Source: a virus
Direction: 5' to 3' (one strand)
DNA: 30,014 nucleotides
Virus record (IMG/VR): IMGVR_UViG_3300034072_002192
Span: 1 to 30,014 of that record
Part shown: positions 3,103 to 24,742 of the stretch, piece by piece
Numbering within the stretch: position 1 is the stretch's first letter
How the letters are laid out: every line of letters starts with the position of its first letter
Notes under the pieces: model-generated
What the model saw: the letters and a program-made list of their open reading frames with translations, nothing else
What the model was told of the DNA's origin: nothing
Databases searched by the model: none
Program-made: the position numbers and the translations under genes

Positions 3103-3109
3103 AAGGGTA

Positions 3110-3569: not shown

Positions 3570-3809
3570 TCAGCCCTTTGACTTTTTGGGGTCAGCCGAG
3601 CGGGGGAAGGTACGCTCCTCCTGGATCTGCCCACCCTCCTTCTTGTGGATGCGGACCGATCCACCGCCAGCACCAAGGGCGCCAGCTAGAGCTCCGCCCT
3701 TGGTGGCTTCAGCCTTGGTGTCAAACACGCGCTTAGCGCGGTCTGCCCCCTCCTTCTGAAGCCGCCAGTTGTCGGCCTTCGGATCATGCGTGAGGTGATA
3801 CTTATCCAT
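3570..3809 (-). CDS. DUF2188 family small protein
   Basis: 79 residues starting MDKYHLTHDPKADNWRLQKE. It carries the DUF2188 pattern: N-terminal strand, W-x-L/V-KKEG, FDTKAEA, then VRIHKKEGG and IQEERTFP at the end. ATG at 3809 is chosen over 3824 because AGGAG lies 7 bases upstream. The gene follows the BstA-like gene by 11 bases and is followed by a strong terminator, so the two form a bicistronic unit. DUF2188 proteins are small, common on mobile elements and of unknown function. Partnership with the upstream gene is suggested only by position. Confidence 0.85.
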   Translation of the reverse strand: MDKYHLTHDPKADNWRLQKEGADRAKRVFDTKAEATKGGALAGALGAGGGSVRIHKKEGGQIQEERTFPRSADPKKSKG

Positions 3810-3820
3810 GGTGTCGCTCC

Positions 3821-8830: not shown

Positions 8831-11001
8831 CAGGCGTCCTCGAAACCGCGCCGGCGCTTGCGGTCATTCGCCTTGTCGATCAGTTCCTGCACGCGCCTGG
8901 CGAACGCCTCGGCATCCTCGCCGGGCTGCTGGGTGATGTGGAAATGGTAGGTATCGCCACCACGCTGGGCCGCGGCGGTCGGCGCGGCAGCGGGGAGGGC
9001 GGCCGAGGCGAACGGGGTGAGCGACAGCGCGCCAGCGGCCATCACGCCGCTCGCCATCCTGCCGGCGGCGCGCGCGGGGCCGTGGCGGTTCTGGTCGATG
9101 CCGGCCTCCAGCCCGCCAGCGACGTGCCCGCCCAGCGCCATGAAGACGCGGCTGGGGCTCTTGATGCCGAGATAGTTCTTGAAGGCCGTGATGCCGTACT
9201 TGGCCACCTGGATCAGCTTGTTGGCCATGGCGATCGGGTTGAGGGCGAGCAGCAACCCTTCCATCATCAACGAGCCGATGTTGCGCAGCCAGGCCGGGAG
9301 CGTGCCGAGAAACGCCTTCACGCCGGCGACGCCCGCCTGGAATGCTGCCTTGATCCGATCCCAGTTGCTATAGATCAGATAGGCGGCCAGCCCGACCGCC
9401 GCTGCGATCGCCATGATCGCCAGTACGATCGGATTGCCCAGCATCATGATGCCGGCCTGCAGCGCGCCGCGGCCGAGAAACAGGAACGCGGTGCGCAGCA
9501 GGCCCAGCACCGGCGCGGCCCGGCGGGCCAGCGCGATAATGTTGCCGATCGGGCCGAGAATGGAGCCGAAAGCGATCTGCGCGGCGCCCAGGCCGATCTT
9601 CAACGTGATCAGCGCGGCGGCGCCCTGCATCAGCGTGGTCGCCAGTTCGGGATTAGCCTTCGCCCAATCCGATATCCTCGCCGCCGCCGTCGACAGATTG
9701 CCGATGACCTGTTTGGCGACCGGAAGCAGGGTGGTGCCCAGTGTGATGGCCACGGCGCTCGCCGAGCCCATCAGTTCGCGCCAGCTGACGGTCGCGTCGT
9801 TCGCCATGCGCTGGTCGAACGCTTTGTCGACCAGGCCGCCGGCCGCCGCGATCTTGCCCTGCATCTGAAGGAATAGCTTCTGATCGATGATCAGCTGGCG
9901 GAGCGCGCTCTGCGCCTGCATGTCCTCGAAAATATAGCCGAGCTTCGACAGGTCACCCTTGGTCGCCTTGTTCGTCAGTGCGATCAGCGTCTGGATCGGC
10001 GAAATGCCGGCGGCGGTGCCCTTCTTGATCGCGGCGGGGAGGTCGATCCCGAAATTCTTCTTGAACGCAGCCGTGGTCGCGGGCGAACTCACCTTGGCCA
10101 GCAGGTTTTCGGCGTTGGTGGCCGCCGCCGCGGAATCGCCGGTGCCGCGCCGGATGGTCTCCAGCATGGCGATCAGCTCGGTTGCGCCGCGTGTCCCCGT
10201 CTGGCCCAGCGCCTGCATCTGGGCGGTGAGGCCGGGGAAGGCCGCCGCCATGTCGCGCACTTCGAACGCACCCTGGTTGCCACCCGCCGCCATCATGTCG
10301 AGCAGCTTGGCGGTCTGCGCCAGCGGGATCTTCAGGTTGGAAACGCCCGCATAGACCGCCGAGGCGGCATCGGTCCCCTCCACCTTGAAGGCGGTCATGA
10401 ACTTGCCCATCGGCCCGGCGGCCTTCACCGCCTGCTCGGGGTCCAGGCCCAGGCCGGACAGTGTATCGACCGCCGCCGCCATGTCGGCCGGCAGCAGGCG
10501 CGCGGCGCGCGCCGACAGCACGATGTTGTTCGCCAGGCGCTCGGTCGCCTTGTCGGACAGCTCCGCCTTTTGCTGGATGTCGACCATGACGCTGGAAAAT
10601 TCCGCCGCCTTGGTGACGGCGTAGATCAGCGGCGCGGCAGCGGCGACGCCGCCGGCGACATTCTCGGTTCCCTTGCTGCGCAGCTCGCTCCCGCGCCGCC
10701 GCATCGCCTGGCGATCGGCCTCGATCGCGGCGAGGCGCTGCTCGCGGGCGATGCGGCGCTGCACCTGTTCCAGCTGCTCCATCGCGTGGCGCTGCCGGTT
10801 GATCAGTTCGGTGGCGTTGCCGCTGGTGCGCTCGATCTGGCGCTCATAGTCGGCGATCTCGCGGGTCAGCTTCTTCGCGTCGCCGGCCAGCGCGCGCAGC
10901 GACTTGGAGCCCTTGCCGCCCAGGCCGATGATGTTGCGCAGCGCGCCGGACATTTTGTCGACGCCGACGAAGTTGACCAGCAGGGAAAGCTTGTTGTTCA
11001 C
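8830..11001 (-). CDS. T: Tail tape measure protein (gpT-like)
   Basis: 723 residues starting with GTG at 11001, overlapping the E' stop (GTGA). Residues 40-110 form a charged coiled-coil-like region. Residues 115-330 match the tape-measure core domain (KAAEFSSVMVDIQQKAELSD, then AALDTLSGLGL-like and MAAAFPGLTAQMQALGQTG). Residues 410-580 carry several strongly hydrophobic segments, with AIMAIAAAVGLAAYLIYSNW among them, and the C-terminus has a YHFHITQQPGED segment. The protein sets tail length and is carried in the tube lumen. At 723 residues it predicts a tail slightly shorter than that of P2 (gpT about 815). Confidence 0.92.
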   Translation of the reverse strand: MNNKLSLLVNFVGVDKMSGALRNIIGLGGKGSKSLRALAGDAKKLTREIADYERQIERTSGNATELINRQRHAMEQLEQVQRRIAREQRLAAIEADRQAMRRRGSELRSKGTENVAGGVAAAAPLIYAVTKAAEFSSVMVDIQQKAELSDKATERLANNIVLSARAARLLPADMAAAVDTLSGLGLDPEQAVKAAGPMGKFMTAFKVEGTDAASAVYAGVSNLKIPLAQTAKLLDMMAAGGNQGAFEVRDMAAAFPGLTAQMQALGQTGTRGATELIAMLETIRRGTGDSAAAATNAENLLAKVSSPATTAAFKKNFGIDLPAAIKKGTAAGISPIQTLIALTNKATKGDLSKLGYIFEDMQAQSALRQLIIDQKLFLQMQGKIAAAGGLVDKAFDQRMANDATVSWRELMGSASAVAITLGTTLLPVAKQVIGNLSTAAARISDWAKANPELATTLMQGAAALITLKIGLGAAQIAFGSILGPIGNIIALARRAAPVLGLLRTAFLFLGRGALQAGIMMLGNPIVLAIMAIAAAVGLAAYLIYSNWDRIKAAFQAGVAGVKAFLGTLPAWLRNIGSLMMEGLLLALNPIAMANKLIQVAKYGITAFKNYLGIKSPSRVFMALGGHVAGGLEAGIDQNRHGPARAAGRMASGVMAAGALSLTPFASAALPAAAPTAAAQRGGDTYHFHITQQPGEDAEAFARRVQELIDKANDRKRRRGFEDA

Positions 11002-11129
11002 CGCCCCTTATCTCCGTGCATGTGGTTCCAGCGGCTGATCGCGCGGTCGCGCCAGTCGAGCAGTTCGTCGGCCGAAAGGGAAAGCAGTTCGGACAGCGGC
11101 CAGTGGAAGATGGCGGCAATGTCGGCCAT
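10998..11129 (-). CDS. E': gpE' tail assembly protein (also C-terminal part of gpE+E' fusion)
   Basis: 43 residues from ATG 11129 (MADIAAIFHWPLSELLSLSA, then DELLDWRDRAISRW), matching GpE-family tail proteins. Its frame is open further upstream to the TTTTTTT at 11192-11198. A -1 slip there from gpE gives a fusion of 91 residues of gpE plus 64 residues, about 155 in total, comparable to P2 gpE+E' (142). The ATG overlaps the gpE stop (TGATG), so separate translation is also possible. The fusion probably acts as chaperone for the tape measure protein encoded next. Confidence 0.85.
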   Translation of the reverse strand: MADIAAIFHWPLSELLSLSADELLDWRDRAISRWNHMHGDKGR

Positions 11130-11464
11130 CAGGTCCTCGGCTGATGTTCCGCGATCAGCGTTTCGACCACCTGCCGTTCGGCCTTCGTCATAAAAAAACC
11201 GCGCAGCGTGCCGCCGATCTCGGCCAGGTCCTCGGGCTCGAGGTTTTCCGCCTCGGAGGGCGTGAGCGGCGGTTCGGTGACGCGCGGGATCAGCTTGAGC
11301 AGCGCGGCAACGTCGCTGGTCAGCACTTCCTGCAGGTTGAGGCCGCGCAGCTCGCCCGCCTTGGGCTTGCGCAGGTTGAGTTTCTCGATCGTCGTCTCGC
11401 CGCGCACGATCGGCGCGGACAGGGTGACGGTTTCGAAGCGATTGGCAGCGGGGTTGTCGGACAT
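11129..11464 (-). CDS. E: gpE tail assembly chaperone
   Basis: 111 residues starting MSDNPAANRFETVTLSAPIV, with the gpE-family KLNLRKPKAGELRGLNLQEV region and helical C-terminal half (EPEDLAEIGGTLRGFFMTKA). AGGAG lies about 9 bases before the ATG. The codons for GFFM contain the run GGT TTT TTT ATG, where -1 frameshifting makes gpE+E'. It lies downstream of the tube gene FII after a 120-base gap holding two strong hairpins. Confidence 0.9.
   Translation of the reverse strand: MSDNPAANRFETVTLSAPIVRGETTIEKLNLRKPKAGELRGLNLQEVLTSDVAALLKLIPRVTEPPLTPSEAENLEPEDLAEIGGTLRGFFMTKAERQVVETLIAEHQPRT
11192..11198 (-). promoter_or_regulatory. Programmed -1 frameshift site (T7 run)
   Basis: Minus-strand TTTTTTT in gpE codons 90-91. 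After a -1 slip translation continues YDEGRTAGGR... straight into E' without a stop. P2 uses a T-run slippery site at the same place in gene E. Confidence 0.8.
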
Positions 11465-11497
11465 GGTGCGGGGCTCCTGGTCGCGCGGGGCGGGTTC

Positions 11498-11567
11498 GGG
11501 CCGGGAGGAAAACGAACAAACCTCCCGGCCCTGCCACCGGACGGCGCCCCGCTACTGGACCGTCCGG
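11498..11567 (-). other. Two strong hairpins between FII and E
   Basis: Perfect 11-bp stem GGGCCGGGAGG/CCTCCCGGCCC (11498-11508, 11521-11531; 12-base loop), next to an 8-bp stem CCGGACGG/CCGTCCGG (11537-11544, 11560-11567). There is no T-run, so simple termination is unlikely. They may protect the 3' end of abundant sheath/tube mRNA or reduce read-through. Confidence 0.6.
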
Positions 11568-11584
11568 CGGATCTGGTGGCCAAG

Positions 11585-12094
11585 TCAGCCGGTGAGGATG
11601 TTCATGATCTCGGCATAGCGATCGAAGCCGTCGACCTCGAAAATGCCGTTGATCATGTCGATCAGCACGTCGGTCGTGCCGTCAACGACGCGCCGGTAAT
11701 AGGCGACCGGCAGCGTGTACTTGTGCTCGGTATCGTCGCCGGGCTTGGACTTGCCGAAGTCGATCTCCGAGAAGCGGCCGTTGAGGTAGACTTCGACGCC
11801 CTGCGCGGCGCTGCCGTCGCTGGCGCGATAGGCGCCGACCAGGCGCAGGCCGACGCCGTCGACGCTGGTGGTGCCGAACTTGCGCACCAGCGACGCGACA
11901 TGGCCTGACATGGTGAGCGTGGCCTCCATCGCTTCCAGGCCCTTGTCGACCTTGACCGGCCCCAGCATGCCGCCGGTGCGCAGATCCTCCATCGACAGCG
12001 CGAGCTTCGGCTCTTCGAATTCGGCGATCTCGCCGAGGAAGCCCTCGCCATCGGCATAGGCGTTGATGTTGATAAGCTTGCGGGCGAGACCCAT
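11585..12094 (-). CDS. FII: Major tail tube protein (gpFII-like)
   Basis: 169 residues starting MGLARKLININAYADGEGFL, with the FII-family pattern: N-terminal NAYADGEGF, DLRTGGMLGPVKVDKGLEAM, and a C-terminal VLIDMINGIFEVDGFDRYAE. It polymerises into the inner tube of the contractile tail. AAAGGA precedes the start. It is immediately downstream of the sheath gene, as in P2, and has the size of the P2 protein (172). Confidence 0.95.
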   Translation of the reverse strand: MGLARKLININAYADGEGFLGEIAEFEEPKLALSMEDLRTGGMLGPVKVDKGLEAMEATLTMSGHVASLVRKFGTTSVDGVGLRLVGAYRASDGSAAQGVEVYLNGRFSEIDFGKSKPGDDTEHKYTLPVAYYRRVVDGTTDVLIDMINGIFEVDGFDRYAEIMNILTG

Positions 12095-12119
12095 CGCGCG
12101 ATCCTTTCATTGGGTGCGG

Positions 12120-13298
12120 TCAGCCGAGCTGGTCGGCGAAACCGGCGTAATATTCGTCGCTGCTGACCAGCTCGACGATCGGGTTCTCCAGCGGCGCGGC
12201 CGGCGTGTAGGTGAGCGTGAAGACCGGCTTGCCGGCGGCGAGCTGGGCAGGCGTGTTCTTCGTGGCGTCGAAGGCCACCCGTGCGCCGATCACCTGGCCG
12301 CCCAGCCCGTTGTTCGGCTGTTTCAGCCGGGCGAGGGTGGCGTTGATCTTCTCCAGCAGAGCCTTGACCATGCCGACGGTCATCGGCTTGTCGATGAACG
12401 GGAAGACGATCGACAGGATCAGATCCTGGAGCGCGTAGCTGGTGCGGCGCGCGCTTTCGAACAGGAATTCGGGCTCGGTATCGCCCGCGCAGGTGCGATT
12501 GCCCCAGAACCGCCAGCCATTGTGCTGGATCAGCGTGGTGATGCCGGCATCGTTCAGCACGCCGGCCGTGGTAGAGCTGTCGAGCAGATCCCAGTGCACG
12601 TCCTTGGTGATCGCGGTGATCCCATCCACGACGACGTTGCTGATCGTCTTGTGCCAGCCCTGCTGTTCATCGATCAGCGCGCGAAGGGCGAGAGCCCGCG
12701 CGACGGCGTCGCCGGAGAAGGCGGCCGAGCTGTCCGGCCAGAGCAGCATCAGCTGGCTGGCGCCGAACTGCTGCTTGTAGACCAGGGCCGCCGCTTCGTC
12801 GTCCGCGTGGATGGCGGCGTAGACCATGGCGCGCAGCTTCTTCGCCGCGATCACCAGCGCGGCGGTCACCGCGTGGCTATCGAGCCCGGGAGCGCCGAGA
12901 ATCCGCGGCGTCTTGCCGACGCGCTGCTGGGCGGCGAGCAGGGCCTGGATGCCGGTGTAGCTGTTGCCGGCGACTGCGCCGATCACATTGGCGTCCATCT
13001 CGGTCTGGTCGGCACCAGCCTCGACGCGCACCACGACCAGGACCGGGCTCGCGATCTCGCTGATTGCGGTGAGCGACGGCCGGATCGTGCCGGTCACGCT
13101 GATGGGCAGGCGGGCGAGCGCTGCCTCGATGTCGGTCACGAGCACCGGCGTGTTGAGGGGGAAGGCGGCGTTCAGCACCGTGGTGTCCGCGCCGGCGGTG
13201 GCGGCCGCCGTTACGATCATGCCGATCGTGGACAGCGTCGCGGCCGTGGCGACGGCGTTGCTGGTGGTGCGTTCGTTGATGGTCAGGCCGTGCGTCAT
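12120..13298 (-). CDS. FI: Contractile tail sheath protein (gpFI-like)
   Basis: 392 residues starting MTHGLTINERTTSNAVATAA, very close to P2 FI (396). Sheath features include the central RILGAPGLDSHAVTAALVIA and WGNRTCAGDTEPEFLFESAR with RTSYALQDLI, and the C-terminal tube/sheath-contact segment VFTLTYTPAAPLENPIVELV ending ADQLG. It surrounds the FII tube and contracts at infection. The gene follows W by 9 bases and precedes FII by 25 bases. Confidence 0.95.
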   Translation of the reverse strand: MTHGLTINERTTSNAVATAATLSTIGMIVTAAATAGADTTVLNAAFPLNTPVLVTDIEAALARLPISVTGTIRPSLTAISEIASPVLVVVRVEAGADQTEMDANVIGAVAGNSYTGIQALLAAQQRVGKTPRILGAPGLDSHAVTAALVIAAKKLRAMVYAAIHADDEAAALVYKQQFGASQLMLLWPDSSAAFSGDAVARALALRALIDEQQGWHKTISNVVVDGITAITKDVHWDLLDSSTTAGVLNDAGITTLIQHNGWRFWGNRTCAGDTEPEFLFESARRTSYALQDLILSIVFPFIDKPMTVGMVKALLEKINATLARLKQPNNGLGGQVIGARVAFDATKNTPAQLAAGKPVFTLTYTPAAPLENPIVELVSSDEYYAGFADQLG

Positions 13299-13307
13299 GG
13301 CGGGTCC

Positions 13308-13691
13308 TCAGCTGGAGCGCTTGCCGCCCATCGTGGCGGGCAGGGGGATGGAAAGGGTGGAAGCGGCATTGGCCGCTACGGTGCCGGCGGGGCGATAGGT
13401 CACCGCCGTCACCAGGTTGCCTTCCGCCGGCGTGCCGGTGAGCGCGATCCTGGTGACCTTGCCGATTCCGATCTCGGGTCCCCAGATCCGTAGCGCGATC
13501 GCGCAGGCCGCGCGCATCAGCATGGCGGTGACCGGGGTGAGGGGCTGGTCGATCAGTTCGAACAGCAGCGAGCCATAGTCGCGCCGCATGACCAGGCTGC
13601 CGAGCGGCGTGCCCAGGACATCAGCAGTCGACTGCACCAGGTGGGCGTTGCCGCTGAGAGCTTTTCCGGTGGTGGCGTCCATCCCGTTCAT
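13308..13691 (-). CDS. W: Baseplate wedge protein gpW (gp25-like)
   Basis: 127 residues starting MNGMDATTGKALSGNAHLVQ, with the gp25/gpW signature LGTPLGSLVMRRDYGSLLFE and LIDQPLTPV. It nucleates sheath assembly in the baseplate. In P2, W lies between V and J; here it is separated from V by the thermonuclease and SEFIR genes and is directly followed by FI. The sequence just upstream of the start resembles the leader of J. Confidence 0.92.
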   Translation of the reverse strand: MNGMDATTGKALSGNAHLVQSTADVLGTPLGSLVMRRDYGSLLFELIDQPLTPVTAMLMRAACAIALRIWGPEIGIGKVTRIALTGTPAEGNLVTAVTYRPAGTVAANAASTLSIPLPATMGGKRSS

Positions 13692-13760
13692 GGGCCTGCG
13701 ATGGCGCCAAGGGCGCCGCGCGCGCCAGAGGGGTGGGCAGTAGAGCCGGGGTTTACGCGG
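13692..13760 (-). repeat. Leader of W, similar to leader of J
   Basis: The 54 bases before W (13692-13745) share with the J leader (23770-23822) an ordered set of blocks: GGCGCC, CGCGCGCG, a G-rich GGGG tract and GTAGAG. In both, GTAGAG lies 47-48 bases from the start codon. Likely a duplicated untranslated leader. Confidence 0.5.
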
Positions 13761-14105
13761 TCAGCGCCAGCGGCGCGCGACGCCCTTGGCGATCAGATAA
13801 TCGCCCGCGTCCCGTCCGTCGACTGCCAAGGTCGCGAGCGTGCGCCGATACCGATCGGTGCCGCTGCGCTGGATGGTGACGCGGCCGGAGGCGAGGAAGG
13901 CGGCGAGGGCGTCGCGGCTGCGCTCGGCCAGGGCATAATCGCACCAACCATGGCCGCGCCGGCGGCGGCATTTTGGGCTGCCGCGCATCTCCGGCGCATC
14001 GATGTTGGCGATGCGGACGCGCTCGCCAGCGCAGGTGCGAACGGTGTCGCCGTCGTGAATTGCGGCGAGGCAGAGAGTGGGTGCGATTAGGGCGAGTAAC
14101 AGCAT
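13761..14105 (-). CDS. Secreted thermonuclease (SNase-like)
   Basis: 114 residues with a short hydrophobic leader (MLLLALIAPTLCLAA), then IHDGDTVR, RVRIANIDAPE and DRYRRTLATL. These contain the staphylococcal-nuclease catalytic positions: Asp18/Asp20, Arg31, Asp36, Glu39 and Arg88. The protein should cleave DNA or RNA with calcium outside the cytoplasm. Its length fits a compact SNase domain. It is not part of the P2 core; it lies between V and W next to the SEFIR gene, on the late strand, so it may be expressed at lysis. Possible roles are degrading extracellular DNA or incoming phage DNA in the periplasm. Confidence 0.85.
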   Translation of the reverse strand: MLLLALIAPTLCLAAIHDGDTVRTCAGERVRIANIDAPEMRGSPKCRRRRGHGWCDYALAERSRDALAAFLASGRVTIQRSGTDRYRRTLATLAVDGRDAGDYLIAKGVARRWR

Positions 14106-14395
14106 GGGGCGGCGTTATCGCCGATAAGACCATACCGCGAGATATATCCGCTTATCGTGACGGCGGCTATGCAGTCTGAGGTACCCGCCTCGGCGGGTCC
14201 GCCGGCGTTAACTTCGCCGATGATCGCCGTCGATCTTCGCGGGTGAACCTAGGCATACCACTCTGTGCAAACCAATCGCGCGAACGATCCAAAGTTGCAA
14301 TTCGCCGCCTTGGCCATGATGGCGCAGCTAAGCGGTTCGCTCGGGCTTCTTGATCCGCTGCGGCTAACTTGCGAAGTATCGAACCTGGAGGGACA
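14106..14395. other. Intergenic region between thermonuclease and SEFIR genes
   Basis: Contains the hairpin ACCCGCC-TC-GGCGGGT (14182-14197), the palindrome TATCGCCGATA near 14118, and a distant pair CGATAAG/CTTATCG. It must hold the divergent start signals of both genes, but no convincing -35/-10 pair was recognised. No gene is supported. Confidence 0.45.
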
Positions 14396-15838
14396 ATGAA
14401 CGATAGCGCTGCACCGAACGTCAAGGCTTTCATCTCTTACGCCTGGTCCTCGAATGCTCACGAGGATTGGGTGCTAGATTTGGCAACCCGACTCGCCTCT
14501 GATGGGGTTGAGGTCGTGTTCGATAAGTGGGACCTGCAGGTCGGGCACGACGCTCACGCCTTCATGGAGAAGATGGTCACAGATCCACTTGTAACCAAGG
14601 TCATGATGATCTGCGACCGCATGTACAAGGAGAAGGCGGATGGAAGGATGGGTGGTGTCGGAAAAGAGACTACAATCCTTACCGCAGAAATTTACGAGAA
14701 AACGGAGCAGAACAAGTATGCGGCGATCATTACCGATACCGATGAGCAGGGTAGACGTTACGTCCCGGCCTACTACGGCGGTCGCCAATACATTGACTTC
14801 ACCGACCCATCGAAAGCCGAGATAAAGTACCAGGAACTACTGCGGTGGCTCTTCGACAAACCGAAGCACGTCAGGCCAAAGCTCGGCACTGCGCCATCGT
14901 TTATCACCGACCCCGACGCTGTCGTCACCAGCACCACGTCCAAGTTTAAGGCCACGGAGCATGCGATCAAAACCAATGCGCTCCAAGCAGGCGGTCTCAT
15001 CGCGGATTTCGGGGAAGCGATGGTCGCGGAGTTCCGAGAGGCTAAACCTACTCCCGCCGATGGCGAGCAATTCGACGAGGCTGTACTCCGAGCGGCTGCA
15101 TCGATGCGGCCGGCTATGCGCCATTTTCACGAGCTAGTTCTTGCAGAGGCGCGCTATAGTGGCACGAACTTCAATCGCTTTCTCCGAATCATGGAGCGAG
15201 TCGGTAGTCTAACCTATCGGCCGCGACACGTCATGCAATGGATGGAGCGTGAATTCGACGCGTATCGAATGATGAGCTATGAAGGTTTTTTAGGGCTAAT
15301 AGCTATTCTGATATCGGAACAGCGGTTTGACCTTATTGGCCAAGCCGTCAATCATACGTATCATATTCCGGAACGCGAAACGTGGAATGGGCCTGTTACC
15401 ACAACCTTTGCGGTTTTCAATTCGGACGTCAGTAGCATGAGGGAGCGAAAGCAGCGGCTTGTTTCAAATCGGGTTGATCTCTACGCGGATTTGATTGCTG
15501 ATACTTACAAGCTCAGCTATCCTACTGTGGCAAGTCTAATTGAGGCCGATGTTCTGCTCCATGTGAAGACAATCCTCTCCGACGCAGACGATCAGGAGAA
15601 GTGGTGGTGGCCCAGAATGGTTATCTACTTCCGAGAATTCGGCTTTTTAGACTTATTTGCGCGCTCGGAGTCACTTGCATTTTTTCAGCGCTGGGCAACT
15701 GAAGTTTTTGGTCCTATCAGCGTCGAGGAATTTAGGGAGGCGGTTACAAATCTTCAGCCTCATCGGGGCTATCTTGGAAATCACGTTCCAACGTTAGGAT
15801 CGCTGACGAACTCGAAGAACTTAGGCTCACGTCCATAG
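14396..15838 (+). CDS. SEFIR-domain protein, candidate antiphage defence
   Basis: 480 residues starting MNDSAAPNVKAFISYAWSSN. Residues 10-152 are a SEFIR domain (TIR-like fold): FISYAW at 12-17, VFDKWDLQVG at 41-50, ICDRMYKEKADGRMGGVGKE at 72-91. Residues 153-480 are mostly helical, match nothing I recognise and may sense infection or regulate the domain. GGAGG lies 4 bases before the ATG. It is on the plus strand against the late operon, has visibly lower GC and lies between V and thermonuclease, so it is an inserted cargo gene with its own expression. Bacterial SEFIR proteins (bSEFIR) are known antiphage systems linked to NAD depletion; that activity here is inferred. Confidence 0.8.
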   Translation: MNDSAAPNVKAFISYAWSSNAHEDWVLDLATRLASDGVEVVFDKWDLQVGHDAHAFMEKMVTDPLVTKVMMICDRMYKEKADGRMGGVGKETTILTAEIYEKTEQNKYAAIITDTDEQGRRYVPAYYGGRQYIDFTDPSKAEIKYQELLRWLFDKPKHVRPKLGTAPSFITDPDAVVTSTTSKFKATEHAIKTNALQAGGLIADFGEAMVAEFREAKPTPADGEQFDEAVLRAAASMRPAMRHFHELVLAEARYSGTNFNRFLRIMERVGSLTYRPRHVMQWMEREFDAYRMMSYEGFLGLIAILISEQRFDLIGQAVNHTYHIPERETWNGPVTTTFAVFNSDVSSMRERKQRLVSNRVDLYADLIADTYKLSYPTVASLIEADVLLHVKTILSDADDQEKWWWPRMVIYFREFGFLDLFARSESLAFFQRWATEVFGPISVEEFREAVTNLQPHRGYLGNHVPTLGSLTNSKNLGSRP

Positions 15839-15977
15839 TGCCGATGATTCTCGTCATACAGCGGTACGGGCAGGTCTAGCCGCCAGCGTTGGATACTGTC
15901 GGAAGCTCGTTATGGTCACGTCAGCGCCACCTCCTCGTCGAGCTGACGAAGGACGGTTTAGGATGATCCATGCGGCA

Positions 15978-16550
15978 TCAGATCGCGCCCCCAGTGACGC
16001 CCGACCCAGGTTGGACTTTTTCGTGCTTGTGATCGCGTAGACTGATGGCACTCACTTTGACGTCGCCGGTCGCGCTGGCGTCGCCTTGCACCGAGAGGTT
16101 GCCCTCGATCGTCACCGGGCCGCGCAGGGTGATGCCGCCAGGCGCGTCGATCGCGACGGTGCCGCCGGCGGGCAGGATGGCGGTGAGCGCGTGCGCTTCG
16201 GGGTCGTAGCCGATGCGGGCGCCGTCCGCATATTCGACCAGCTCCGCCAGCGTCGCCCCGGGGGCGGGGAAGGCCTCGCTGTAGATCCCGACCAGCGCAA
16301 CCGCGCCAGCGAGTTGGCCATCGGGCACCAGCACGATCGCCTGCTCGCCGATGCTGGGCGGCGACCAGCTGCGCGTCCGCCCCGCGCGCAGGGCCAACCA
16401 GCGGATCGGCGGCGTCACCGCGCCGCCACCGTCGTCGTCGGGGTCGCCGTAGCGGACGGCGCATTTGCCGGCGGCCAGGTCGACCGTGGCGATCGAGCCC
16501 AGCCGGATCAGCTCGCCCAGGTCTGCGGGGATGTCTTCCTGCTGCCTCAC
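15978..16550 (-). CDS. V: Baseplate spike protein gpV
   Basis: 190 residues with GTG start at 16550 overlapping the Rz stop (GTGA). The OB-fold region (about residues 18-100) has GSIATVDLAAGKCAVRYGD and GEQAIVLVPDG. The C-terminal part is repetitive beta-helix sequence (TVAIDAPGGITLRGPVTIEG, then NLSVQGDASATGDVKV) ending in the LRDHKHEKV motif, whose His-x-His probably binds the iron ion of the spike tip, as in P2 gpV. It pierces the outer membrane at infection. In P2 it follows S; here it follows the lysis genes. Confidence 0.92.
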   Translation of the reverse strand: MRQQEDIPADLGELIRLGSIATVDLAAGKCAVRYGDPDDDGGGAVTPPIRWLALRAGRTRSWSPPSIGEQAIVLVPDGQLAGAVALVGIYSEAFPAPGATLAELVEYADGARIGYDPEAHALTAILPAGGTVAIDAPGGITLRGPVTIEGNLSVQGDASATGDVKVSAISLRDHKHEKVQPGSGVTGGAI

Positions 16551-17107
16551 TTGGCGGCGGCCTCTGCCGGCACCGCGACGCCGGCGGCGATCAGGTCGAG
16601 GGCTTGTTGGTGCATTTCGGCGGCGCGGGCAGCGGCGGCCACAAGCTGTCGATCCTCGACGGCGGGACGGCAAACCAGCTCGGCAGTGGAATCGGGTCGG
16701 TGAAGGCCCGGCTGAGCGGGATCGGGCTGGGGCAGATCGGCGCCGCCGGCGCCACCTCGATCCGCCGGGCATTGCAGGCGGACAGCAGCAGCATCGGCAG
16801 CGCGGCCGACGCGATCGTAATAGGCAGGCGCTTCATGGTCCGATCCTTTGGCGATGGCGGCGGCGATCGTCGCCGGCGCGCGGTTGACGGCGGCCTGGGC
16901 AATGCCGGCCTGTTTGGAGGCGCCCTCCATTTTGGCGATGGTCGCGGTGGCGGCGGCGAGGCGGGCCTTCAGGCCCTCGATCCAGAAGAGACCCTCGATT
17001 CGGATCGTTTGAACGGCGAGCGCCAGCGCCAGGCAGATCGCCACGATCGTGGCGGCGAGCTGGGCCGCGCGTTGGGTGAGCAAGGCGAAGGGGTTCAGGG
17101 TTCCCAA
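16547..17107 (-). CDS. Rz-like inner-membrane spanin
   Basis: 186 residues with an N-terminal membrane segment (residues 18-36, LAATIVAICLALALAVQTI) followed by an Ala-rich helical periplasmic region, as in i-spanins. The start is TTG at 17107, five bases after the endolysin stop; the Shine-Dalgarno is weak and the start could be further in. A second reading frame inside it encodes a lipoprotein of Rz1 type. The pair would fuse inner and outer membranes in the last step of lysis. The C-terminal half is compositionally odd because it also encodes Rz1. Confidence 0.75.
   Translation of the reverse strand: MGTLNPFALLTQRAAQLAATIVAICLALALAVQTIRIEGLFWIEGLKARLAAATATIAKMEGASKQAGIAQAAVNRAPATIAAAIAKGSDHEAPAYYDRVGRAADAAAVRLQCPADRGGAGGADLPQPDPAQPGLHRPDSTAELVCRPAVEDRQLVAAAARAAEMHQQALDLIAAGVAVPAEAAAK
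16591..16836 (-). CDS. Rz1-like outer-membrane spanin lipoprotein, embedded in Rz
   Basis: 81 residues starting MKRLPITIASAALPMLLLSA, with a lipoprotein signal peptide and lipobox LLSAC (lipidated Cys21). The mature part is short and Pro-rich (ICPSPIPLSRAF, PPLPAPPKC), the hallmark of Rz1. It lies wholly inside the Rz gene in another frame, as in lambda. AGGA lies 7-9 bases before the ATG at 16836. It would be sorted to the outer membrane and bind the Rz C-terminus across the periplasm. Confidence 0.82.
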   Translation of the reverse strand: MKRLPITIASAALPMLLLSACNARRIEVAPAAPICPSPIPLSRAFTDPIPLPSWFAVPPSRIDSLWPPLPAPPKCTNKPST

Positions 17108-17111
17108 GACG

Positions 17112-17645
17112 CTACGCCTCGTTGCTGGAGATGGCGGCGTCCGCGGGGACAGCGGCGACCTTGCGGGGAGCGGTGCGGGGCACCCCGGCCGGCCAGCGGC
17201 GCGCGACGCAGCGCGACTTGCCGATCCGCATCACGTTGACGGCGTCGCTCTGGTTGCCGCCCAGGACGTGATAATAGCCGGCATCCTCGGCGACGTAGAA
17301 GCCGACATGGCCGCCGCCTTCGCGCTCGAATACCAGCACCGCGCCGGGGGCAAGCTGGTCAGCGGTGAGCGGCGTTCCCCAGCTCGCCCAGGACTTGGCG
17401 CGCAGTGCGATCTTGGGCGGAGTAATGCCCGCCTGCTTGACGCACCAGGCCGCAAACAGGCCGCACCAGGGCACCGAATCCGCGTTGTACGCGGCGCCCA
17501 GCACGCCGACGCCGAGCCGCGCCGCCCAGCCCATGATGGTGGCACTGTTCGGCACCCCGGGTACCTCGCGCGTGCCGATCAACGCGCGGGCGACGGCGAG
17601 ATAGGGCGGTTCGGCGGTGGCAGGGCGGTTCGGCTGATCGGTCAT
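17112..17645 (-). CDS. Endolysin, TIGR02594/CHAP-like peptidase
   Basis: 177 residues starting MTDQPNRPATAEPPYLAVAR. The central region fits the TIGR02594 class of Cys peptidases: VPWCGLFAAWCVKQAG with nucleophile Cys61, then GGGHVGFYVAE with His113 and a following GGNQSDAVNV. Such proteins cut peptidoglycan peptides. GGGAAAG precedes the ATG. The start overlaps the small membrane gene by ATGA. Lying between holin-like genes and spanins makes it the lysis enzyme. No signal peptide is seen, so release depends on the holin. Confidence 0.87.
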   Translation of the reverse strand: MTDQPNRPATAEPPYLAVARALIGTREVPGVPNSATIMGWAARLGVGVLGAAYNADSVPWCGLFAAWCVKQAGITPPKIALRAKSWASWGTPLTADQLAPGAVLVFEREGGGHVGFYVAEDAGYYHVLGGNQSDAVNVMRIGKSRCVARRWPAGVPRTAPRKVAAVPADAAISSNEA

Positions 17646-17806
17646 GGCTTTCCCTTTCGGCGCGGTCGATCGAAGAGGTGGGTGGCCGCGCGAGAGCCGG
17701 CGGGCTCGATCGCGCGAATGCGGGCGTGGAGGCGGCGTGCGCGCCAATAGCCGAACAGGCAGAGCGCGGCCGAGACGAGCAGCACCAGGGCGAACAGGTC
17801 GGTCAT
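17642..17806 (-). CDS. Small lysis-cassette membrane protein
   Basis: 54 residues starting MTDLFALVLLVSAALCLFGY, one transmembrane segment at residues 3-21, then a strongly basic tail (RARRLHARIR, RPRRKGKP). It overlaps both neighbours by ATGA, so it is translationally coupled within the lysis cassette. A single-TM protein with basic tail could be an antiholin or pinholin-type regulator; no family is recognised. Confidence 0.7.
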   Translation of the reverse strand: MTDLFALVLLVSAALCLFGYWRARRLHARIRAIEPAGSRAATHLFDRPRRKGKP

Positions 17807-18165
17807 TTGGCGCCATCCGTTGCATCCGGGGCGGTAAGGCCGAGGCGCTTGCGGAAGATGGTCTGCAGCGCATCGAGCGCGAAGGCGAAGCCCAGCGCAC
17901 CCATCACCATGGTGGCGATCACCACGCCCCAATCGGGCCATTCCTTCAGCCGTCCGATGCCGAGTGCGATCGTGGCGAAGGCGGGCAGGGCGGACAGTTC
18001 CGAAAAGACCAGCCAGCGGCGCTTGCGCTCCCACAGTCCGAGCGCGGCGGGATCGCGTGGTGGTTCGGGCGCGACGCCGTAGAGCATCCAGCCGAGCCGG
18101 GCGCCGACCATCGCCATGCCGGCGCAGAGTGACCAGAGCCAGAGCAGGATATCTTCGATTTTCAT
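17803..18165 (-). CDS. Putative holin
   Basis: 120 residues starting MKIEDILLWLWSLCAGMAMV. Three hydrophobic segments are visible, at about residues 6-29, 55-72 and 80-102, separated by a charged loop with LWERKRRWLVF, and a basic C-terminus (FRKRLGL). Size, topology and place directly before the endolysin fit a class I holin. AGGAGG lies 9 bases before the ATG. It starts the lysis cassette 28 bases after the fibre gene. Confidence 0.75.
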   Translation of the reverse strand: MKIEDILLWLWSLCAGMAMVGARLGWMLYGVAPEPPRDPAALGLWERKRRWLVFSELSALPAFATIALGIGRLKEWPDWGVVIATMVMGALGFAFALDALQTIFRKRLGLTAPDATDGAK

Positions 18166-18193
18166 AGGTATAAGCCTCCTGGCCCCTCTCGGC

Positions 18194-20623
18194 TCAATTG
18201 TTGTTCCACTTTTCGACAATCGCGTAATAAGTCGCGTTGGTGACGTCGATGGCGGAAGATGTTGGATTGAACACCGTAACATTGACGACGTCATTCGCAC
18301 TTACTCGACCAGAAACAATCAAGTTTCCGTAATCGAGTGAGCATGCGATATTCACCATGTCGCGCATTCTCGCGCCAGGCATCGGGATTTCGAAGCTGGC
18401 ATAATTGAGCGCCGGGATAGGCGGCAGGTTGTATGTCAGCGGGCCGAGTAGCGTCTTGGCCGAATCGCGCCGCCAATAGGTGCCGTCCCACCGCCATCCG
18501 GTCTCACCGCGCGCGGCTTGATATTTGTGGAGGATATCGCCCACCGCCCAGGTGCCGACCGTGAGAGGCAGCACCCATTCGGCGGCGGTTGGGTCGTAGG
18601 TTTCGGATACGCCAACGATAGACCATCCGCCTTCGATGGAAGGGTAGAAGCTGATATTCTGGCTCGCCAGCAGGACGCGTTGGTTCAGATTGCGGTAGTT
18701 GTTCAGGTCGAACCCATCCGCGCTGGCGACCAACTCGTTGAAAACGCCGCCATCCGAAGAGCAATTCTCGATGATGTTTCCAAGAATGGTGGAAGCGACC
18801 GCACGTCGCGCCGTTCCGCTGGTTCCGGTCATGCGGCTATTGCGGATGATGTTCGGCGCCGACTGAACGACAATCGCGTGCGAACCGCCGGCGCCGACTT
18901 CCCAGCTACCGCTTACCTCGAAGCCAGCAATGTCGGGATCGATCGCGACCGGTACCCTCGCCTTCGCGCGGCCGGTGATCACCGTATCGACGGACATGCC
19001 TGGGGCGTTCGGAAACCGGGCATAGACACCGATGCCGGAATCGTTTTCGATATCGACGTTCAGCGTCAGATCGCGCTGGTGCCCACCGGCGAGCGCGTTG
19101 CTGTCGCCGAACTCCATCTTGAGGCCCGACGCGGTCGGATCGCCGAACACACGGACGAACACGTCGAAACGGCTGCGGCAGCAAATCCCTTTGATATTGA
19201 CCAACGCCTCGTTGGTCGGGGTCGTCCGACGTCGCGTGACCGATGCGCGGCAGTCGCAGTCGACTGCATTGAAGAATTCCACGCCGGTGCAGTCCGGATC
19301 CTGGACCGTGGCACTGAGACGCGCGCCGCGACCGAACTGAAGGTGGACAGTATCGTTGCGGTTCGCGGCCGTGATGTTGTTGTCGAGATTATAGACGCCG
19401 GGTCCCACGGCAACGACGTCCACCGATCCGCCGATGATCCCTTCCACCACGCAGACCGCCATGCCGACATCGGTGGCGAGAATGTTGATCCGCGATGCTG
19501 TCCACGAGCGGCCGCGCACCGCCTTGGGGCTGCCTACCGTAGGGCTTGGGCTCGCGGCGACACAGGTCAGGTTGAAGTCGCAGCCATAGATCCAGTTCAA
19601 CTGGATATTCTGCGTTGCCTGATTGGTGTTGCGCGCGCGCGACGTGATGGTGCCGCGACAGTTGGTAGCCCATTCCAGCACGAGCCCGACGCCGGAACTT
19701 TCGCTATCGAGCCAATCGGCATCGATGTTGCTGTCGATCACATAGCGCAGCGTGACGGAGACGTTGCGCAGCTTGAGGCGGGAAAGATCGACCCGCTTTG
19801 GCAACACCTTTGCGGCACTGATCGCGTACAGGGTATCCGTGCCGGTGTTATTGCTGACCGTCTGCGCATCGAGACCATAGGGGATGGACTGATGCAGCTT
19901 GATGACCATGTTGGCGGTGTCCACCGCTCGCACCTGCATCATTGCGGACCAGAGGACATTCCGGCCGCTATTGTCGGTCCAGGCGCCGGGAAGATGGCCG
20001 CTCAGGACGACCCAGTCGCCCGCCGCCAGGGGGCCGGTCAGTTCGGTATAGGCAAATTCCCGAGCGCCGGCTGGAACCGCCGTTTGCGCGGGCGTGATGG
20101 TGGTTCCCGTGTCAACCGATCCGCCGAGCGTGAGCGACACCGGGCTTGCAGCCGTCAACGTCGCATAGTCGATCGCGGTGACGGTGAGGGCGGAGAGCGA
20201 GGCGGCAAGCGCGAAGCTGCCGCCGCCGCCCGCAAACGCGCCGCCCGTGGCAAGCGCACCGGCGGCGCTCGAATAGCGGGAAAGCTGCTTGCCCAGCGCG
20301 TCGACCATCGAGCGCGTGGCGGGGATGCCGATCGGCGTGCCGGCCGCATTGTACCAGGTCAGCGTGCCGGTCTGGTCGCTGATAAAGGTGTTGGGGGCAA
20401 CCGTGGCTGCCACACCGTCGGCGATGGTCGGGTAATAGCGCTGCGCGGTGAAAGCGATGTCGGCGGCGGCTTCCGCCAGCGCCTCGGCATAGGGGGTCGC
20501 CATCCGTTCGAAATAGCCGGCGCCGGAGGTGCGGCGGGTAACGCCCGCCTTCACCACCGGCATCCATTCGGTGCCGTCGACATCGGGGGTCGCGAGGATG
20601 GGCAGATCGCTGATCTTCGCCAT
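18194..20623 (-). CDS. Large tail fibre/spike with beta-helix-like body
   Basis: 809 residues. The N-terminal 60 residues (MAKISDLPILATPDVDGTEW) look like a virion-attachment region, followed by a hinge with Gly-rich AFAGGGGSFALAASL. Residues 250-620 have the irregular Asn/Asp/Val repeats of a right-handed parallel beta-helix, as in spikes that bind or cut capsule polysaccharide. The C-terminal 60 residues (LNYASFEIPMPGARMRDMVN) resemble the closing domain of such spikes. It lies between the tail-assembly-like gene and holin. No catalytic residue can be assigned, so receptor binding and depolymerase activity are both open. Confidence 0.8.
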   Translation of the reverse strand: MAKISDLPILATPDVDGTEWMPVVKAGVTRRTSGAGYFERMATPYAEALAEAAADIAFTAQRYYPTIADGVAATVAPNTFISDQTGTLTWYNAAGTPIGIPATRSMVDALGKQLSRYSSAAGALATGGAFAGGGGSFALAASLSALTVTAIDYATLTAASPVSLTLGGSVDTGTTITPAQTAVPAGAREFAYTELTGPLAAGDWVVLSGHLPGAWTDNSGRNVLWSAMMQVRAVDTANMVIKLHQSIPYGLDAQTVSNNTGTDTLYAISAAKVLPKRVDLSRLKLRNVSVTLRYVIDSNIDADWLDSESSGVGLVLEWATNCRGTITSRARNTNQATQNIQLNWIYGCDFNLTCVAASPSPTVGSPKAVRGRSWTASRINILATDVGMAVCVVEGIIGGSVDVVAVGPGVYNLDNNITAANRNDTVHLQFGRGARLSATVQDPDCTGVEFFNAVDCDCRASVTRRRTTPTNEALVNIKGICCRSRFDVFVRVFGDPTASGLKMEFGDSNALAGGHQRDLTLNVDIENDSGIGVYARFPNAPGMSVDTVITGRAKARVPVAIDPDIAGFEVSGSWEVGAGGSHAIVVQSAPNIIRNSRMTGTSGTARRAVASTILGNIIENCSSDGGVFNELVASADGFDLNNYRNLNQRVLLASQNISFYPSIEGGWSIVGVSETYDPTAAEWVLPLTVGTWAVGDILHKYQAARGETGWRWDGTYWRRDSAKTLLGPLTYNLPPIPALNYASFEIPMPGARMRDMVNIACSLDYGNLIVSGRVSANDVVNVTVFNPTSSAIDVTNATYYAIVEKWNNN

Positions 20624-21084
20624 CAGGCGTCTCCGAAGTTGGGCCAGAGGGGATTGGTCGCGACCGGGAAGTCAGCCAGCGCGCGGTCGTCGGCGGCGGC
20701 GACCAGCTCCTCGATCGTGTTGGACGCGGTGCGGATCGCGTCGATCGCCGAGAAGCGCGCCCGGCCTTCGTCGTTCGGCGCGCGCAGATCGTTGAGCTGG
20801 CGCCAGATCGGGCTGACCAGTTCGATGCGGCGACAGGCCTCGGCCTTGATGGCGCGGACCAGGGCGGCGCGGCGATCGGGCGCCGGGATCACCGCCGGCG
20901 CCGCGATCGGCCCGCCGGTTTCCGGGCAGCACATCAGCGCGCCGCCGGCGGCGAGCTGCGCTATGCAGTCGGCATGCACGCTTGCGTCGACCGGCACCGC
21001 GTCCTCCGGGATCTGGCTGGAAGCATCGGGCAGGTAGAAGCCGCGCGCGGACGGGCTCCACAGGATGGTTGCCTGGTCGATCAT
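20623..21084 (-). CDS. Tail fibre assembly-like protein
   Basis: 153 residues starting MIDQATILWSPSARGFYLPD. The N-terminal part has the phage tail-assembly chaperone look (YLPDASSQIPEDAVPVDASV), the C-terminal part is helical (NTIEELVAAADDRALADFPV, then ATNPLWP). It overlaps H upstream by ATGA and the fibre gene downstream by TGATG. P2 has fibre chaperone G at this place; similarity to G is by position and composition, not clear motif. Confidence 0.65.
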   Translation of the reverse strand: MIDQATILWSPSARGFYLPDASSQIPEDAVPVDASVHADCIAQLAAGGALMCCPETGGPIAAPAVIPAPDRRAALVRAIKAEACRRIELVSPIWRQLNDLRAPNDEGRARFSAIDAIRTASNTIEELVAAADDRALADFPVATNPLWPNFGDA

Positions 21085-22130
21085 GCGATGCCCTCCGCCC
21101 GCCAGTTGACGCCGGACAGCGCGCCTTCGCCGCCGCTGGACGGGTCCTGGATCCAGAGCTGCACCTGGGTGGTGGTGCGGGTGCCGGCGATTTCCTGGAA
21201 GAAATTGTCGTAGTCGCCGCCCGCCGGGATCACGGTGGTCAGCTGCAGATCATAGTCGGTGTTGGCGAAGGCGATCGGGAAGGCGATCGTCACCACCTGC
21301 TGGCCGTTATAGCCTGCCCGGGCCAGGCCGCGCTGGACGAGCGTGCCACCGGGAAACACCTCATAGCCGATAGCGCCGCGCTGCCGGGGCAGGCCGCCAA
21401 ACGCAGCCGGGGTAACCGCCTTGTCGGCTGCCGATGCCGCCTGCAGTTCGGACGCGCTGGCCGGCGTCACCGTCAGGGTGCGATCGTCGCCCAGATCGCC
21501 GCCGCCTGTGACCAGCCCGCCGCCCGTAATGGAGCGGCTGGCGACCGCCGAGATCGCTGCTCCCAGATCGACAATCGCCGACAGGATCGACGCCAGTCTC
21601 GAGCGGAGCGTCGATGGCGTGACGAAGGTCTCGGCATCGTCGCCGGCGTCGGCCGCCGCGTCGACCCGATCCTGCGTCGCGATCTTCGCCACGCCGCGCG
21701 TGGTCTCGGTCGCCGGTGGCCAGGTGAAGATCGCGTCGCCGAACTCGATCGAGGCGGCGAGGTCGCCAGCGAAGCGGACGTCGAAGGCGAACAGCGCGAA
21801 GGCCTGTCCGGCCTTGGACAGGATGTTTTCGCTTTGGCTGTAGGTCGCAAAGAGCGTGCCGTCCGAGAGAAACAGGCCGAAGCCGGAAGCCGACCAGACA
21901 TCGGTGGACGTGTCGTAGACGGTGAGGTGCGCGACGTTCGGCGCGGCGGCCATGCCCGAGGTAATCGGGAGCCGCTTGAACTCACCCGGCAGGCTGGTGA
22001 TCGTCGGCGCCGGATCGAACAGCGCGGCGGTGAGGCCGAGATGGGAAATCACAGTGGGATCGGAGCCGGCCGGCCCCTGCACGGCGGCGGCGCCCGCATC
22101 GGTGAGGTGCAGCACGAGCGGGTTGGCCAT
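21081..22130 (-). CDS. H: Tail fibre protein gpH-like (short)
   Basis: 349 residues starting MANPLVLHLTDAGAAAVQGP. The N-terminal 150 residues match the P2 gpH attachment domain family (LTDAGAAAV and FGLFLSDGTLFATYSQSENI). The middle has a fibre-repeat-like segment (TRGVAKIATQDRVDAAADAG, FVTPSTLRSRL) and the C-terminus ends in a beta-rich tip. P2 gpH is about 669 residues, so this fibre is roughly half as long; the separate 809-residue spike downstream may supply the host-range part. ATG 22130 overlaps the I stop (TGATG). Confidence 0.85.
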   Translation of the reverse strand: MANPLVLHLTDAGAAAVQGPAGSDPTVISHLGLTAALFDPAPTITSLPGEFKRLPITSGMAAAPNVAHLTVYDTSTDVWSASGFGLFLSDGTLFATYSQSENILSKAGQAFALFAFDVRFAGDLAASIEFGDAIFTWPPATETTRGVAKIATQDRVDAAADAGDDAETFVTPSTLRSRLASILSAIVDLGAAISAVASRSITGGGLVTGGGDLGDDRTLTVTPASASELQAASAADKAVTPAAFGGLPRQRGAIGYEVFPGGTLVQRGLARAGYNGQQVVTIAFPIAFANTDYDLQLTTVIPAGGDYDNFFQEIAGTRTTTQVQLWIQDPSSGGEGALSGVNWRAEGIA

Positions 22131-22777
22131 CACGGATGCTCCAGATAGTCGGGGCCGTTGCCGTCCCGGATGGGCTCGCCATTCTCGGTCTGGAGCACGG
22201 CCGCCCAGTTGCGGCTGACATCGAGACTGGCGGCATAGTCGGCACGGCCCAGCGAGCCGGCCATGCCGGCGGCGGCGAGATAAATGGACAGCTGCGCCGA
22301 CACCGTCTGGACGAAATCGAAATGGGCGCGCAGCGGCTTGGCGGCGGCGACATCGCGAATGATGGCGTCGACCACGTCGGCGGTGAGGAAGCTGGGCGCG
22401 ATTTCCGCGGTATCGGCGCGCACTTCGAACCTGTGCGGGCGGCGAGGTGCGGGCATTTCCCACCCCTCGACCACCCGGAGCAGCGGATGGAATCGCGCCA
22501 GCACCTGTTCCACGGCGGCGCGGGTCCCGCGTATCTTGTGCGCGGCGACTGCGCCGGCAACGGCGGTGCGCTTCTGCGCGACCGACCAGTTGGTGTCCCA
22601 ATGGCTGACCGCCCAGCCCCAGGCGAGGAAGGGCAGCAGCGCCTCGGGGCACTGGCCGGGATCGAGCATCGTTGCCAGCGTCGAATAGTCGATCTCGGCG
22701 CGCATCGCGGCCTCGATCGCGCGCATGCCGGCGGTGGCGTTGGGCGGTAGCAGGGAGGTGGCGCGGGCGTCCGTCAC
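22130..22777 (-). CDS. I: Baseplate protein gpI
   Basis: 215 residues starting MTDARATSLLPPNATAGMRA, with the gpI-family pattern LLPFLAWGWAVSHWDTNWSV and the following HKIRGTRAAVEQVL. It joins J in the outer baseplate and contacts fibres. The start overlaps the J stop by ATGA and the gene precedes H, the P2 order. P2 gpI is 176 residues. Confidence 0.92.
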   Translation of the reverse strand: MTDARATSLLPPNATAGMRAIEAAMRAEIDYSTLATMLDPGQCPEALLPFLAWGWAVSHWDTNWSVAQKRTAVAGAVAAHKIRGTRAAVEQVLARFHPLLRVVEGWEMPAPRRPHRFEVRADTAEIAPSFLTADVVDAIIRDVAAAKPLRAHFDFVQTVSAQLSIYLAAAGMAGSLGRADYAASLDVSRNWAAVLQTENGEPIRDGNGPDYLEHP

Positions 22778-23769
22778 CGCTCGGTGCCCCCGAGCGTGAC
22801 GTTGATGCTGGTCGGGTTGCCGATCTGGGCGTCGCTGATCGGGATATCGTCCGCCGGCGAGATCAGGTTGACGCGCTGGACGTTGCCGACGTGCAGCGCG
22901 GCGATGATCGCGGAGCGGGCGACGTCCCGGCCGAGCTTGCGGATGCTGGTGAGGTGGGCGGCAAGCGACGCCCGCGCGGTATCGAGGATCAGCGTCTGAT
23001 CCGGGCCGGCGAAGACGTAGATCTCGGCGACGATCGCGAAGTCGATGCGCTGGGCGGCCTGGACGATCACCCGGTCGGTAAGCGGGCGAACGTCGCCCTG
23101 CAGCGCGGTGTCGACGGCCGCGAGCAGGGCGGCGTCGGCGATGCCGCTGGCGGTGGCGGCCAGGACGGTGACGCGCACGTCGCCGGGCCAGTCGGCGGCG
23201 TCGAGCGCTGCCGTCATCGCCGTGGTGAGCGCCTCCGAGGCGCCGTTCGCCGCCAGGACCTGCAGCACCAGCGCGCGAATGTCCGCCGGGGCGGGTGAGG
23301 TGGCGGTGGCATCGGCGACCGACCCCGACGCGGAGAGCGCGTGATAGATATAGGCCTGCTCGGGGCCGGCCACGCTGAACTGGTGCGGGGCGAGCTGGAT
23401 GCGGCGTTTGTACGCGGCATCGCCTTCCATCACCGCCGGCGCGGTGCCGGTAGCCGGAGTGACCACCAGGCGGGGGCAGTCGACCAGGGCGCCGAGCTGG
23501 TCCAGATCCTCGCCCTCGGCGAAGGCGAGCAGCCGCGCCTTGGCCACCTCGTTGAAGGCCTGGGCGAGGTTGAGCTCGTCATAGCTGTTGGCGAGCAGCA
23601 GCTTGTAGGCGGGGTCGCTTTCGACCAGCGCGTCGAAGGCGGGATACACGCCGACAAGGCGCGCGACCTTGCCGGCCAGGCGCGTCTCGAAATCCGGCTG
23701 CGCTACCAGCGTCGGCGCCGGCAGCGCGGAAAGGTCCACCGAGGGAGAGGAGGCGATCGAACCGACCAT
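22774..23769 (-). CDS. J: Baseplate wedge protein gpJ
   Basis: 331 residues starting MVGSIASSPSVDLSALPAPT, with the gpJ/gp6-like pattern ESDPAYKLLLANSYDELNLA, AEGEDLDQLGALVDCPRL and the C-terminal ISDAQIGNPTSINVTLGG. P2 gpJ is 302 residues. It is the first gene after the arsenic insertion and so must have its own promoter or late promoter upstream; the leader at 23770-23822 resembles the leader of W. Confidence 0.93.
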   Translation of the reverse strand: MVGSIASSPSVDLSALPAPTLVAQPDFETRLAGKVARLVGVYPAFDALVESDPAYKLLLANSYDELNLAQAFNEVAKARLLAFAEGEDLDQLGALVDCPRLVVTPATGTAPAVMEGDAAYKRRIQLAPHQFSVAGPEQAYIYHALSASGSVADATATSPAPADIRALVLQVLAANGASEALTTAMTAALDAADWPGDVRVTVLAATASGIADAALLAAVDTALQGDVRPLTDRVIVQAAQRIDFAIVAEIYVFAGPDQTLILDTARASLAAHLTSIRKLGRDVARSAIIAALHVGNVQRVNLISPADDIPISDAQIGNPTSINVTLGGTER

Positions 23770-23833: not shown

Positions 23834-23870
23834 CTTGGACGAAACCGACATATGGGCAATGACCGAAACC

Positions 23871-23953: not shown

Positions 23954-23966
23954 TATACTGGATATA
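23954..23966 (+). promoter_or_regulatory. ars operon promoter -10 region
   Basis: TATACT lies at 23954-23959, so transcription would start about at the arsR ATG (23966), suggesting a leaderless transcript. The -35 is poor. Palindrome TAGCTAGCTA (23932-23941) and ATCC-8-GGAT around the -10 are possible ArsR sites. Confidence 0.4.
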
Positions 23967-24298
23967 TGGAAAACGAATCAGCCATCGCTGCGCTGGGCGC
24001 CCTTGCCCAAGGAACACGGCTCGACGTATTTCGCCTACTGGTGCGGCACGAGCCGAACGGCATGGCGGCGGGGGAGATCGCCCGCCAGATGGACGTGCCG
24101 CAGAACACCATGTCGGCACATCTCGGCATTCTCGCGCGCGCCGGCCTCGTCTGCTCTGAGCGACAAAGCCGCTCGATCATCTATCGCGCCGATCTGGCGA
24201 GCTTGCGCGCGCTGACGCTCTTTCTCGTCAAAGATTGCTGTGCGGGCAGCGCTGAGTTGTGCGCGCCGCTCGTCGCCGAACTCGCCCCCTGCTGCTGA
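23966..24298 (+). CDS. arsR: ArsR family arsenite-responsive repressor
   Basis: 110 residues starting MENESAIAALGALAQGTRLD. Winged HTH at about residues 8-75, with recognition helix NTMSAHLGILARAGLV. The classic ELCVCDL metal site is absent; instead Cys91-Cys92, Cys99 and Cys109-Cys110 cluster at the C-terminus, as in the ArsR type with a C-terminal arsenite site. It should bind the promoter just upstream and leave when arsenite binds. It is first of five co-oriented genes and is opposite to the phage late genes. Confidence 0.9.
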   Translation: MENESAIAALGALAQGTRLDVFRLLVRHEPNGMAAGEIARQMDVPQNTMSAHLGILARAGLVCSERQSRSIIYRADLASLRALTLFLVKDCCAGSAELCAPLVAELAPCC

Positions 24299-24309
24299 AA
24301 GGACGCGCC

Positions 24310-24738: not shown

Positions 24739-24742
24739 CGCG

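Follow-up and report, generated by a model that had tools for sequence, protein, structure and literature searches.

A divergent bSEFIR gene inserted in the tail operon of a P2-like prophage, between V and W

The bSEFIR system (PADLOC PDLC03957) consists of a single gene; PMC12926258 credits its description to Millman et al. (2022). SEFIR is listed among the modules that deplete NAD+ (PMC12774641; PMC12926258), and PMC10884400, citing Stokar-Avihail 2023, states that a phage major capsid protein is recognised by a SEFIR system. Rousset et al. (2022; PMC9122126) place the defence hotspot of E. coli P2-like phages at A-Q and that of Vibrionaceae at cI-integrase. Here we analysed a viral record of 30,014 bases, the whole of which is called the window. 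A large part of a P2-like temperate phage lies on its minus strand, with genes for head completion, X, R, S, J, I, tail fibre, lysis, V, W, sheath, tube, E, tape measure, U and D. The host of this prophage was probably a sphingomonad bacterium.

A gene at 14396–15838 (+) starts with ATG and runs for 480 codons without an internal stop. A Shine-Dalgarno-like GGAGGG was read directly from the sequence 5' of the ATG (14387–14392, +). The 251 bp upstream contained no consensus sigma-70 site, in a scan that is weak for GC-rich alphaproteobacteria. Promoter and terminator scans of the window gave no clear excess over shuffled sequences, and no Rfam match was found within it.

The encoded protein matched the PADLOC bSEFIR model over residues 8–475 (E 3.4e-87) and PHROG 11745 over residues 7–457 (E 3e-110), which agreed with the original prediction of a defence-related protein. 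Single-sequence searches of genome and viral contigs with the window protein returned no relative; alignment-based searches succeeded, and a seven-member alignment query recovered 320 encoded relatives in genomes (80 kept) and 74 in viral contigs. Filtering at <80% identity left 119 sequences, window included, with a median length of 479 aa (5–95% range 473–491), and an architecture of ~479 aa was common to at least 118 diverse relatives. All 103 full-length relatives in one alignment matched both PADLOC bSEFIR and SEFIR. The nearest homologue found came from an Erythrobacter MAG (54% identical), followed by one from Sphingomonas (43%). Judged by sequence, the window gene is a bSEFIR member, ordinary for its family though divergent.

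We consider it very probable that this gene is a single-gene, NAD-depleting bSEFIR system of abortive infection, that it is a moron of a temperate P2-like phage whose host was probably a sphingomonad, and that it works by the following steps. We infer that the protein would be made in the lysogen and that this copy would be active. Its helical C-terminal domain (residues ~166–480) would detect part of an invading phage, probably one of its structural proteins. Recognition would then let the SEFIR domains (residues 10–152) come together as an active NADase, in which Glu91 is the presumed catalyst. As NAD+ falls, the cell would stop or die before the intruder matures.

The gene had been predicted to be prophage-carried and to lie on the plus strand, with lower GC, between V and W, and the surroundings bore this out. 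It is antisense to the tail operon. On one side lies the baseplate gene V (PF04717, E 9.5e-10), whose ORF as listed covers 15978–16772 (−); the gene probably starts further downstream, near 16540, and V homology to most relatives begins at ORF residue 79. On the low-coordinate side lie an SNase-like nuclease gene (13761–14105, −; PF00565, E 3.4e-08) and then the gp25-like baseplate wedge gene W (13308–13691, −; PF04965; phrog_43, E 7e-28). The sister phage L163 (87–89% nucleotide identity) is continuous across window positions 9544–14144 and 15977–23127 and has an empty site at the bSEFIR position. Therefore, bSEFIR is a clean cargo insertion of ~1.83 kb (14145–15976), flanked by the stop codon of V and by the SNase-like gene. 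The insert encodes one gene, as expected of a single-gene system, and no shared partner gene was noticed in the relatives' neighbourhoods examined. An apparent 21-bp overlap between blastn ends was considered as a target-site duplication and rejected after it failed a shuffle test. The small SNase-like gene between V and W is retained in many close relatives (L163, L166–L170, L183) and missing in others.

The phage carries other cargo as well. A BstA homologue was found at 3821–4792 (−) (PADLOC PDLC02356, E 9.5e-110; PHROG 6287, E 2.4e-77); BstA is known as an abortive-infection protein of prophages with self-immunity (PMC8585504), and the searches made did not find it in the sister phage (L163/L188). 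A DUF2188 ORF (3570–3824) adjoins this homologue. An arsenic-resistance operon at 23966–27068 (+), between phage genes J and S, comprises ArsR, ArsC, ACR3, ArsH and an ORF assigned by eye as GNAT-like. Its site is empty in the sister phage L163, and the counterparts of window positions 23835 and 27203 meet within ~11 bp in L187. Next to the repressor region, two adjacent ORFs at 2519–3138 (−) look like a HigB/HigA toxin-antitoxin pair by eye. An ORF at 5586–5987 (+) resembles the IS66 accessory TnpA (NF047595, E 2e-16, below the curated cut-off) and may be what is left of an IS within the prophage.

The presence of further cargo (BstA, the ars operon) on a temperate phage raises the alternative that bSEFIR benefits the prophage itself, as a maintenance toxin, for instance, or by excluding close relatives only, and is not a defence against unrelated phages. 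PMC9122126 lends this some weight, as some P2-like cargo excludes other P2-like phages too. We nevertheless regard it as unlikely, because no antitoxin partner was seen in the insert and homologues of the same length were widespread in bacterial and archaeal genome contigs and also occurred on plasmids.

Defence by NAD+ depletion would depend on the SEFIR domain (14423–14851, +). The original prediction of this domain at residues 10–152 was confirmed by profile searches: residues 10–128 matched SEFIR PF08357 (E 4.6e-14; 53.4 bits against a cut-off of 23), and residues 12–148 matched TIR_2 (2e-13), again above the curated cut-off. An AlphaFold2 model built with 103 sequences (whole-protein pLDDT 91.7) contained an alpha/beta domain at ~9–152 and helices from ~166 to 480. 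The SEFIR domain resembled the prokaryotic SEFIR structures 5y8e/5y8f both in sequence (E 6.6e-31, ~40% identity) and in fold (TMt 0.86–0.88). The modelled fold also matched IL-17R/ACT1 assemblies (9ot1: IL-17RA/RB/ACT1) and TIR NADases, including SPARTA and SARM1.

Conservation within the domain was strong. E91, D43, W17, M57-E58 and G87 were invariant in all 119 divergent sequences, and D52, R84 and G89 were retained in almost all of them. Glu91 (codon 14666–14668, +) sits in a GGVGxE motif and has the same spacing from the preceding valine as the glutamate of the TIR xWVxxE motif; this equivalence was read by eye, as the profile alignment of SEFIR with sphingomonad TIR domains spanned residues 9–80 only and E91 lies beyond. 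Because Glu91 is invariant and shares this spacing, it is the likely catalyst in our reading. In eukaryotes, SEFIR domains signal by assembling, and the resemblance to the IL-17RA/RB/ACT1 assembly could mean that the domain is non-enzymatic, a scaffold that recruits another effector as in IL-17 signalling. Such a role is very unlikely for the window protein, given the single-gene insert with no partner seen, the invariant glutamate at the TIR-NADase position, and the NAD+ depletion reported for bacterial SEFIR systems (PMC12774641, PMC12926258).

The composition of the gene is sharply unlike that of its flanks. The GC content of the ORF is 52.4%, against 68–71% in the flanking phage genes, and its GC3 is 59%, against 91% (sheath, J). 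A tree of 146 sequences placed the window gene with the Erythrobacter MAG and Sphingomonas genes (support 99–100), away from most P2-carried copies, which suggests that sphingomonad hosts were the source of its capture. A single origin of the P2-carried bSEFIR genes was rejected, since the tree needs several gains; together with the grouping of the window gene among sphingomonad genes, this makes the capture look independent. bSEFIR is rare in the family of the Sphingomonas genome, being present in 4 of 299 genomes.

The odd composition, in a record that is a single viral contig, could also be read as an assembly chimera, or the gene as a decayed passenger without function. Either is highly improbable. 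Both flanks of the insert are intact, with the stop codon of V on one side and the start of the SNase gene on the other. The ORF is likewise unbroken and retains the residues that are invariant in the family; its nearest homologues belong to the bacterial order inferred for the phage's host; and other phages carry cargo at the same junction. As in the original prediction, the gene would protect the lysogen, to judge from its family.

The second half of the protein (residues 166–480; 14891–15835, +) is presumed to be its sensor or regulator. The original prediction described a long helical region here, and structure prediction agreed: residues 158–480 alone gave a confident model (pLDDT 92.4, pTM 0.90) of a single all-helical domain. 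No significant fold match to this domain was obtained in PDB or BFVD, and PDB fold searches found no solved structure of a bSEFIR C-terminal part. The PDB hits were of low probability (designed armadillo repeats, further helical proteins), and no fold was assigned from them.

The same prediction had called this region unrecognised and possibly a new type of sensor. The first description holds for Pfam, as no recurring family was found in the C-terminal half among the 103 aligned relatives; it does not hold for PADLOC bSEFIR and PHROG 11745, which cover the region and which the C-terminal half alone still matches (1.3e-08 and 1e-36, respectively). This half is 48% identical to that of the Erythrobacter MAG relative, 35% to that of the Sphingomonas relative, and 14–48% to relatives across the bSEFIR family. 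Since the same C-terminal region is present in all full-length relatives and lies inside both models, sequence comparison indicates that it is the standard second half of bSEFIR and not a novel fusion. That a new sensor type was fused to SEFIR in this prophage is thus hardly credible, for all that neither a Pfam family nor any solved or viral fold matches the region, when every full-length relative carries it (103 of 103 aligned), the Erythrobacter MAG and Sphingomonas genes among them, and these relatives spread over many phyla.

With the C-terminal half as the presumed sensor of an ordinary bSEFIR protein, the trigger may not be the same as in the tested SEFIR system, because this half is so weakly conserved across the family. 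Its fold is family-wide and without a structural relative, and solving the C-terminal domain of one member would reveal how bSEFIR senses phages.

P2-like phages are repeated carriers of bSEFIR, and the window gene adds a divergent member to the prophage defence repertoire. Among the 74 viral contigs with a bSEFIR relative, 31 were P2-like, as called from at least two structural gene matches and with near-identical copies included in the counts. In 25 of these 31, bSEFIR lay beside the portal gene, at the A-Q site. Klebsiella phage ST15-OXA48phi14.1 likewise has bSEFIR at the A-Q/portal side. Two loci, L108 and L111, carry it antisense and directly upstream of V. On a Pseudomonas luteola plasmid (NZ_CP044087.1, 98112–111392), bSEFIR was seen beside the portal gene, a DNA adenine methylase and HicAB of a P2-like element. 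This element, in a record filed as a plasmid and with a replication initiation gene nearby, is a possible phage-plasmid.

We also examined what other phages carry between V and W. The sample comprised 113 loci with both genes, some contigs being counted twice, and came mostly from a search for sheath proteins similar to that of the window. The V-W gap was <100 bp in 81 of the 113 loci and at least 800 bp in 10 distinct records besides the window. A SIR2 protein occupied the junction in L255 (3138–5385; PDC-S65, E 2e-186), and a TIR-AAA protein in L263 (7854–9607; PDC-S59, E 2e-16). The junction of L167 (954–7628) held an AriA-like AAA ATPase (1e-56), AbiTii (1.1e-36) and SRAP. Related phages carried V-W cargo in L251 (2229–4357) and L164 (3768–7628); the cargo among related phages includes four antisense ORFs, one with a weak HEPN signal, plus genes of unknown function. 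Several cargo proteins had no family match at all. In both L218 (4536–5354) and L271 (8153–8971), an antisense ORF of 272 aa lay in a 1543-bp gap between V and W, one copy being in a sphingomonad genome and one in a viral contig. Neither copy matched PADLOC, the L218 copy had no PHROG match, and the L271 copy had no Pfam match.

Among loci sampled by sheath similarity, V-W is thus a junction with variable accessory genes, some of them of defence type. We put forward tentatively, as a possibility rather than the expected outcome, that V-W of sphingomonad P2-like prophages is an undescribed defence hotspot, apart from A-Q, that has repeatedly gained single-gene effectors of NAD-consuming type (bSEFIR, TIR-AAA, SIR2). 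Cargo that runs against the late tail operon, like the bSEFIR gene here, could be silenced by late transcription at induction, which would spare the prophage its own suicide gene. This junction offers a specific target in the search for more defence genes.

Compared with the A-Q hotspot (cos side) of Rousset et al. (2022; PMC9122126), the window phage is alike in being a P2-like prophage that carries an accessory defence gene open to exchange. It differs in location: A-Q runs from gpA to the portal gene gpQ, whereas the window gene lies at V-W, in the baseplate/tail operon, a site that the available part of that account does not mention. PHROG 11745 matches the window protein over its full length and bears the label of unknown function; the link to bSEFIR comes from PADLOC. 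The SEFIR domain is like that of the BcSEFIR crystal structures 5y8e/5y8f, the chains of which hold the SEFIR domain only. Compared with the single-gene bSEFIR system itself (PDLC03957), the window protein is alike in its full-length match, length, domain order and invariant SEFIR residues; it differs in being a divergent copy, 54% identical to the nearest homologue, and in being carried inside a tail operon.
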